A model generated the notes under the pieces. The model did no database searches. It worked only from the letters and a program-made list of their open reading frames with translations, and was not told the DNA's origin. Shown here piece after piece: positions 26,791 through 28,608 of a DNA stretch of 64,000 nucleotides. Made by a program: the position numbers and the translations under genes. Origin of the DNA: Chitinispirillales bacterium (lineage in GTDB: Bacteria; Fibrobacterota; Chitinivibrionia; Chitinivibrionales; Chitinispirillaceae); NCBI GenBank assembly GCA_031254105.1, contig JAIRVB010000027.1, positions 62,001-126,000 of the forward strand, in the 5' to 3' direction. Each line of letters opens with the position of its first letter. The stretch's first letter is position 1.

Positions 26791-26811
26791 AATATTTAAG
26801 GGGCCTGATCA

Positions 26812-26871
26812 ATGAGAAAGTTCGTAATGTTTATCACGCAAACATCTTGCACAGCAGCTCAATCTAACTAA
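26812..26871 (+). CDS. Micro-ORF 1, 19-aa peptide
   Basis: Encodes MRKFVMFITQTSCTAAQSN followed by TAA, with AAGGGG 8 nt upstream. Its first residues match the N-terminus of the downstream ligase (MRKFVRFI). It could be a leader peptide controlling the downstream gene, or a relic of duplication. Not demonstrably translated. Confidence 0.4.
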   Translation: MRKFVMFITQTSCTAAQSN

Positions 26872-26884
26872 AGAGGGTCTGATC

Positions 26885-26944
26885 ATGAGAAAATTCGTAA
26901 TGTTTATCACGCAAACATCTTGCACAGCAACTCAATCTAACTAA
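26885..26944 (+). CDS. Micro-ORF 2, 19-aa peptide
   Basis: Encodes MRKFVMFITQTSCTATQSN followed by TAA, with AGAGGG upstream. It differs from micro-ORF 1 by one silent change and one Ala-to-Thr change. The stop is 14 nt before the ligase ATG, a distance that would allow reinitiation or coupling. Confidence 0.4.
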   Translation: MRKFVMFITQTSCTATQSN

Positions 26945-26958
26945 AAAGGGTCGAACTA

Positions 26959-28608
26959 ATGAGAAAGTTTGTAAGGTTTATCATAGGTTTAGATAAATAC
27001 CTGAGAGAGAGATTGGAGCCTTTAGAGGCTGTGGAACGCGCGCGCAGGCTTCTTAAGGAACGGATTGCAACGCGCGGGGAAAACTTCCTTAATCTGTTGG
27101 AGCGCGGCGTGTTCGGTTACGCGAAAAGTCCTTATTTAAAGCTGCTTGAGCCTAAAAAAATCTCTTTTTCTGATGTCAAGTCATGGGTAGAGAATGATGG
27201 GGTTGAGCAGACTCTCTCAAAGCTTGTGCAGGAGGGAGTATATTTTACAGTCGATGAGTTTAAAGGTAAAACTGAAGTAAAAAGAAACGGCGCTGAGTTT
27301 AAATGCTCTGAAGCGATGTTTGACAATCCGTTTTTATCAGCTGTTTACGAAGTCAGAAGCGGCGCTACGCGCAGCGCGGGTACACGGGTGAGGATAGATT
27401 TTGATTACCTTGTGCAACGTTCCTTTTATGACGCGTTTCTGCTTGCCGCTCACAGTTCTCTTACTGTTCCTATTGCGAACTGGTTCCCTATTTTTCCCGG
27501 CGCGCCGGGTATAAATTCCTCACTGCGCTTTACTTACATAGGTAATCCTCCAAGACGCTGGTTTTCTCAGGTTGACAGGGCGCAAATTAAGGTGAACTGG
27601 GAAAAAACATGGGGAACAAATTTTATCTTCTGGATGAGCCGCGCTCATGGAGTCCGCCTTGCCGAACCTGAATATGTAAATTTGAATCATGCGCATAAAG
27701 TTGCGAAATGGGCTTCCTCCATGCTTGATTATTATCCTAATTGCGTTATTTATACATTCGCGACATCTGCCGTAAGAGTTTGCATAGCCGCCAAGGAAAA
27801 TGGTTTGAGCCTTAAAGGGGTGCGTTTTCTTGTTACCGGAGAAACGTTAAGCGCGCAGAAAAGACGCGAGATAGAGGCATGCGGAGCTGTGGCGATTCCT
27901 GTATATGGCATAAGTGAAGCGGGAGTGATCGCTGCCGGATGTGAAAAGCATTCTACATGCTGTGCAAGGGACGGAGGTAGCGATCATTGTCATTTGTATA
28001 AAGATACTACCGCAGTCATCACACACCCATACACCGTGCCGCATTTTGATACAAGCGTAGATTCATTCCTCTTCACCACACTTCTTTACGAATCGCCAAA
28101 ACTGCTTCTTAACGTAGGAATGGGTGATTACGGTTCTGTTTACACGCAAGCAAGTGACTGCGCGTTTGGCAAGGAGGGATTTGATATTCACCTGAGCTCA
28201 ATCATGAGCTACGAAAAACTTACCGGTGAAGGTGTAACATTTGTAGATACCGATTTTATACGTATCATCGAAAAAGAACTGCCTGAAAAATTCGGCGGAC
28301 AAAGTACCGATTATCAGCTTGTTGAGGAAGAGGATGAAAAGGGGCTTAACCGAATGCGTTTATTTGTAAGCCCGCGGTTAGGCGTTGTTGATGAAAGTAA
28401 AGTTGTAAACACGTTTTTAGAGATGCTGCGCAATTCTGAGAGCAGTCCGGAGTCCTGGGCTCAGTCCGGTTCGGTGATGTGGGATCAGGCAAGAATGGTA
28501 CGCGTAAAGCGGGAGTATCCGATGGCTACAGTCAGCGGAAAAATCCTTCCTTTTCATCTTCAGAGCAGAAAAAAAAGTTCAATAACGCAAAACTTGAAAA
28601 CTTCTTAA
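26959..28608 (+). CDS. ANL superfamily adenylate-forming protein (PaaK/CapK-like)
   Basis: 549 aa. It belongs to the phenylacetate-CoA ligase-like branch: RSGATRSAGTRVRIDF occupies the position of the Ser/Thr/Gly-rich phosphate loop, FLVTGETLSAQKRREIE is the core strand, and VYGISEAGVIAAGC is the acyl/AMP-binding Y-x-x-S/T-E motif. A cysteine-rich insert (CEKHSTCCARDGG, then HCH) follows that motif and may bind zinc, as in some PaaK/CapK proteins. It would activate a carboxylic acid as its adenylate; the acid and acceptor are unknown. It lies between hemL and hemB, 12 nt from the latter, and is preceded by two tandem micro-ORFs that copy its start. Confidence 0.75.
   Translation: MRKFVRFIIGLDKYLRERLEPLEAVERARRLLKERIATRGENFLNLLERGVFGYAKSPYLKLLEPKKISFSDVKSWVENDGVEQTLSKLVQEGVYFTVDEFKGKTEVKRNGAEFKCSEAMFDNPFLSAVYEVRSGATRSAGTRVRIDFDYLVQRSFYDAFLLAAHSSLTVPIANWFPIFPGAPGINSSLRFTYIGNPPRRWFSQVDRAQIKVNWEKTWGTNFIFWMSRAHGVRLAEPEYVNLNHAHKVAKWASSMLDYYPNCVIYTFATSAVRVCIAAKENGLSLKGVRFLVTGETLSAQKRREIEACGAVAIPVYGISEAGVIAAGCEKHSTCCARDGGSDHCHLYKDTTAVITHPYTVPHFDTSVDSFLFTTLLYESPKLLLNVGMGDYGSVYTQASDCAFGKEGFDIHLSSIMSYEKLTGEGVTFVDTDFIRIIEKELPEKFGGQSTDYQLVEEEDEKGLNRMRLFVSPRLGVVDESKVVNTFLEMLRNSESSPESWAQSGSVMWDQARMVRVKREYPMATVSGKILPFHLQSRKKSSITQNLKTS

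Follow-up and report, generated by a model that had tools for sequence, protein, structure and literature searches.

In a 64,000-nucleotide stretch of a Chitinispirillales bacterium genome, analysed as a whole and referred to here as the window, two nearly identical micro-ORFs lie one after the other in front of a ligase-like gene, in the order hemA, hemL, array, ligase-like gene and hemB. The locus raises the question of how such a pair arose and whether it controls the genes that follow, as had been supposed in a preliminary description, in which the micro-ORFs were regarded as possible leader peptides or translational decoys for the ligase and hemB. The likely explanation is a recent, lineage-specific tandem duplication that included a non-ligase insert, with the micro-ORFs being its by-products and exerting generic coupling at most.

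The three ATG codons of the array are located at 26812, 26885 and 26959, at intervals of 73 and 74 nt, and the first two open frames of 19 codons. These positions, spacing and frames, as given in the preliminary description, were confirmed by a repeat search, by TRF (score of 285 for the tandem array) and by a pattern count, in which ATGAGAAARTTYGTAAKGTTTATCA (≤3 mismatches) was found at three sites in the window and at none in 100 shuffles. The units 26812–26879 and 26885–26952 are 96% identical across 68 nt, with a unit length of 73 nt, and both micro-ORFs encode MRKFVMFITQTSCTA[A/T]QSN*. The one silent and one conservative change noted earlier between the two frames correspond to AAG/AAA and GCT/ACT (Ala/Thr), respectively, and one more change is located past the stop. 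The ATG of the first start copy lies 21 nt past the hemL stop, and the third copy is partial and forms the true start of the ligase-like gene. The features of the locus are collected in Table 1.

Table 1. Features of the array, the adjoining genes and the related dispersed repeat (positions in the window).
Feature	Position	Strand	Remarks
hemL	25465–26790	+	directly upstream of the array
Start copy 1, ribosome site with codons 1–8	26798–26836	+	D2 repeat family; near the ancestral position
Micro-ORF1, 19 codons and TAA, MRKFVMFITQTSCTAAQSN	26812–26871	+	predicted SD duplex −8.1 kcal/mol
Insert copy 1 (Q, 34 nt), not ligase-derived	26837–26870	+	bounds from repeat families D1/D2; related to G000:C23:61691
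Start copy 2, ribosome site with codons 1–8	26871–26909	+	D2 repeat family
Micro-ORF2, 19 codons and TAA, MRKFVMFITQTSCTATQSN	26885–26944	+	predicted SD duplex −6.4 kcal/mol
Insert copy 2 (Q, Q2), copy closest to the dispersed leader repeat	26910–26944	+	85% to C23:61691–61729; profile score
Start copy 3, ribosome site with codons 1–8, belonging to the real ligase gene	26945–26983	+	D2 repeat family; predicted SD duplex −4.7 kcal/mol
Ligase-like gene (549 aa; weak matches only), distantly of the phenylacetate-CoA-ligase/AMP-binding type	26959–28608	+	
hemB	28621–29601	+	directly downstream of the ligase gene
Dispersed repeat copies	25422–25455, 59758–59791, 60840–60873		
Dispersed repeat copy	47669–47702	−	

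The unit turned out to be composite. Its ligase-like part extends over about 39 nt only, taking in the ribosome site and codons 1–8 (25 nt of it coding), and the 34–35 nt between the start copies, designated Q, are not ligase sequence and give codons 9–19 of the peptide (11 codons) together with the stop. The order along the DNA is therefore start copy, Q, start copy, Q, and start copy continuing into the gene. The idea that the micro-ORFs copy the beginning of the ligase holds for the ribosome site and codons 1–8 and fails for the final 11 codons, which come from the inserted sequence.

No Pfam match was obtained at 1e-3 for the 549-aa protein, and a search of the PDB gave a weak match to phenylacetate-CoA ligase (E 0.019); a weak AMP-binding match was found in one of 14 homologues. 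These homologues, drawn from Chitinispirillia/Fibrobacterota and Acidobacteria MAGs, can be aligned over their whole length and mostly begin with MRKY-RFI-GL. Because this N-terminal motif is conserved in the 14 aligned homologues, the ATG at 26959 is taken as the true ligase start, which bears out its earlier designation as the start of the real gene. The ligase lies together with hemA and/or hemB in Chitinispirillia and in an acidobacterial MAG (window 24047–35681; L011, L017), and in the window it is also located near UbiD/UbiX-like genes and glycosyltransferases. Such a neighbourhood of an uncharacterised AMP-binding-like ligase may be a marker of an undescribed tetrapyrrole-linked pathway.

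The ligase was present in 9 of 24 family genomes, the window's own genome being counted. In G001, the only same-genus genome compared, the ligase is 84–85% identical and its ATG comes 15 nt after the hemL stop, with neither array nor micro-ORF at this locus (L010). No such array was visible upstream of the other ligase loci inspected, the micro-ORFs were not conserved upstream of orthologous ligases (L010/G001 and the other homologues inspected), and a 200-nt query revealed no counterpart in 151 related genomes. These sequence comparisons indicate that the array is lineage-specific. Head-to-tail, near-identical copies that are missing from the same-genus relative are the marks of a tandem duplication, and no other start duplication comparable to this one was found among 328 sampled gene starts, so start duplication is not something this genome does regularly.

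Two codons allowed the copies to be placed relative to the divergence of the gene. Codon 4 is Phe in the window gene and in both copies and Tyr in the other 13 homologues; because Phe is common to the gene and both copies, this single site suggests that the copies are probably younger than the split from G001. At codon 6, both micro-ORFs have Met, against Arg in the homologues (Lys or Gln in two of the 14). As the Met is common to both copies, the change probably occurred before the second duplication, again on the evidence of a single site, and at this codon the micro-ORF copies are not under ligase-type constraint. The serial duplication of the gene start proposed in the preliminary description is thus supported by the repeat structure, by the array-free same-genus relative and by the comparison of the start copies.

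The non-ligase half of the unit was also found at another operon junction. A 39-nt part of the unit has an 85% identical counterpart between gmd and fcl (G000:C23:61691–61729, E 2.8e-5), two genes that are in direct contact in G001, where the insert is lacking. A search of the genome with a Q model gave three strong places, namely the two array copies and the gmd–fcl junction, and weaker matches (E 0.004 to 10), which fell within genes or in varied surroundings, were not taken as members. No flanking target duplication was found for the gmd–fcl copy, and target-site duplication around the other insert copies was not above shuffles. No match turned up in phages or plasmids; exact-core matches in viral contigs were dismissed as two unrelated-looking sites. 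The gmd–fcl junction (L002:1458–1535) also contains a possible TTG-started ORF of 20 codons ending across the fcl start (ATGGATAA) and a predicted hairpin (z −1.47). A likeness of the micro-ORF peptide to this locus (MREACFLQVSGTATQSNKNG, in the matching frame, seen by eye) was set aside, as it needs a TTG start and concerns one pair. A sequence like the insert tail, GGCAACTCAATCTAAATAAAAAG, is located directly upstream of a tRNA-Asn gene (L009:1480–1526, G000:C1) and is flanked by TACTGG repeats that are not above chance.

The tail of the insert, ACTAAAA, was traced to a dispersed repeat of 27–34 nt with the consensus CACGCGTACCGATAATCACTACTAAAA. At ≤2 mismatches, 69 copies of the repeat were detected in this genome, 4 in G001 and none in 22 other family genomes, with a reversed-pattern control giving none in G000; the repeat is expanded in this species versus the sister genome. 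The family carries ATAATCACTACTAAAA and abuts gene starts in one orientation only. A same-strand start lay within 20 nt of the A-rich edge of the repeat at 16 of 54 sampled sites, and the corresponding count on the opposite edge and strand was 0 of 54; this edge-to-edge contrast is the stronger evidence, because the rate of start proximity at random positions is already 0.16. The A-rich edge adjoins the starts of hemL, a response regulator, a pseudouridine synthase and others, and also a tRNA. The repeat is frequently found in tandem or as a palindrome, with palindromic 102-nt units on contig C42 (L106:1597–2002) and tandem direct copies elsewhere. The repeat is possibly a mobile leader or promoter.

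When the second insert copy was compared with the 69 repeat members, its gapped profile score was 14.3, a value reached by 1 of 1500 shuffles and by 6 of 1498 intergenic 44-mers, some of them true members. An nhmmer profile built from the repeat gave no hit to Q at E ≤ 10. Judged by the gapped profile score alone, Q is probably a divergent copy of the dispersed repeat.

The following course of events would account for the array. In the ancestor, the ligase gene would have been located almost directly after hemL. A sequence of about 34 nt, probably a divergent dispersed leader repeat, would then have come to lie just inside the ligase start, with the ribosome site and codons 1–8 being duplicated at the same step, the full gene continuing from the downstream copy. 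In this way, insertion or template switching together with tandem duplication would have shifted the ligase start downstream, and one further 73-nt tandem duplication would have given the second unit. The micro-ORFs would be orphaned start copies reading into the insert up to a chance stop. If they are translated, generic effects are the most likely, with ribosomes terminating 13–14 nt before the next start and reinitiating; the alternative to reinitiation would be independent initiation at the ligase site.

With pairing computed for an assumed E. coli-like 16S 3' end, the predicted SD duplexes of both micro-ORFs are stronger, and that of the gene weaker, than the median of 335 called genes (−5.4 kcal/mol), and on the strength of this pairing, which counts against the duplication explanation, the micro-ORFs may really be translated. 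The plausible ribosome sites are accompanied by close stop-to-start spacing, as in cis-acting upstream ORFs, the gaps being 13 and 14 nt, with the stop of micro-ORF2 located 14 nt before the ligase ATG. The preliminary description had taken the open frames as kept. Two random substitutions leave a 19-codon frame intact about 80% of the time, so the open frames, with two differences within the ORFs, are not evidence of selection and carry no weight as a sign of function.

The SD-like sites and the gaps, as well as the known cis-acting intergenic small ORFs mgtQ (PMC8092293) and the axe-txe minigene (PMC8708949), could point to a translational coupling device, in which termination of the micro-ORFs shortly before each start sets ligase translation in a manner dependent on position and not on the peptide. 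However, any duplicated start would look alike, the same-genus relative passes from hemL directly to the ligase, and no unusually stable RNA structure was present, as the array RNA folded worse than shuffles (z +2.09). A device of this kind is unlikely here, with some chance of being correct.

The insert could instead be a new promoter or leader of the ligase. The transcription start would in that case be located downstream of both micro-ORF starts, leaving the micro-ORFs off the main mRNA, which is compatible with the duplication explanation. The motif, the position at gene starts and the single orientation of the Q-like repeat family agree with this, but Q has no recognisable TATAAT, no sigma-70-like site was called and the promoter role of the repeat is itself putative, and a new promoter or leader is a minor prospect.

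Far less can be said for a peptide-specific leader (an attenuator, arrest peptide or metabolite sensor) acting on the ligase and hemB. Two near-identical peptides within a tetrapyrrole gene cluster might suggest one, but MRKFVMFITQTSCTA[A/T]QSN contains no regulatory codon run and no Glu codon, the array showed no called terminator-like or sigma-70 site and no Rfam match, the fold is weaker than in shuffles and the peptide is not conserved. Its C-terminus, moreover, derives from the inserted sequence, which is also present at an unrelated locus. Such a leader is very improbable, and control of the ligase and hemB by leader peptides or decoys was not supported, given the array-free relative, the lack of attenuator features and the Met at codon 6.

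Off-target spacer integration by Cas1, duplicating the target around an insert of about 34 nt, is scarcely credible and was rejected on unit length. The 39-nt repeat and 34-nt insert resemble the layout of one integration and the genome has two cas1 genes, but the resident array is spaced at 63–68 nt and not 73 nt. The ligase array, moreover, contains two nearly identical copies of the insert, and a related copy elsewhere has no flanking duplication. The resident CRISPR array (L072:10150–10829, G000:C38) has 11 repeats and is located near cas1; the second cas1 is on C55, with no array in the stretch read.

Under the favoured explanation, a tandem duplication with micro-ORFs as by-products, the locus is a clean example of bacterial micro-ORFs arising without selection, a start being copied and then reading into adjoining sequence. 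It also calls for caution in small-ORF annotation that infers function from a ribosome site and an open frame. A lead that may matter more than the array is the dispersed repeat with its oriented position at gene starts. A bolder and rather doubtful extension is that this repeat enters translation starts by insertion or recombination and sometimes duplicates them, so creating series of orphan micro-ORFs by which operon expression is reset; the array would be a snapshot of the process.

In the literature searched (most subscription papers being outside the search), regulatory upstream ORFs and minigenes were found and no case of tandem start-copy micro-ORFs was described. In Salmonella, mgtQ is an intergenic small ORF between mgtC and mgtB that acts in cis (PMC8092293). 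Like the micro-ORFs of the array, it is short, lies between genes of the same direction and closely precedes the next start, but it uses alternative stem-loops and acidic residues, neither of which is evident in the ligase array, and the array consists of two tandem copies from the downstream gene's own start, without conservation. The axe-txe minigene (PMC8708949) is likewise a mini-ORF that precedes a gene inside an operon; it has two codons versus nineteen in the array, whose regulatory role is putative. In its sequence the insert is similar to a single arm of a genome-specific intergenic repeat that also forms palindromic tandem arrays, as do REP/BIME-like dispersed repeats, whereas here it is a divergent single arm with membership by gapped profile score only. 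With short tandem duplications of an initiation region the array shares the head-to-tail, near-identical and lineage-restricted copies and the fusion of the last copy to an intact gene, and it differs from them in that half of the unit is inserted and common to another operon junction, and so is not purely local.
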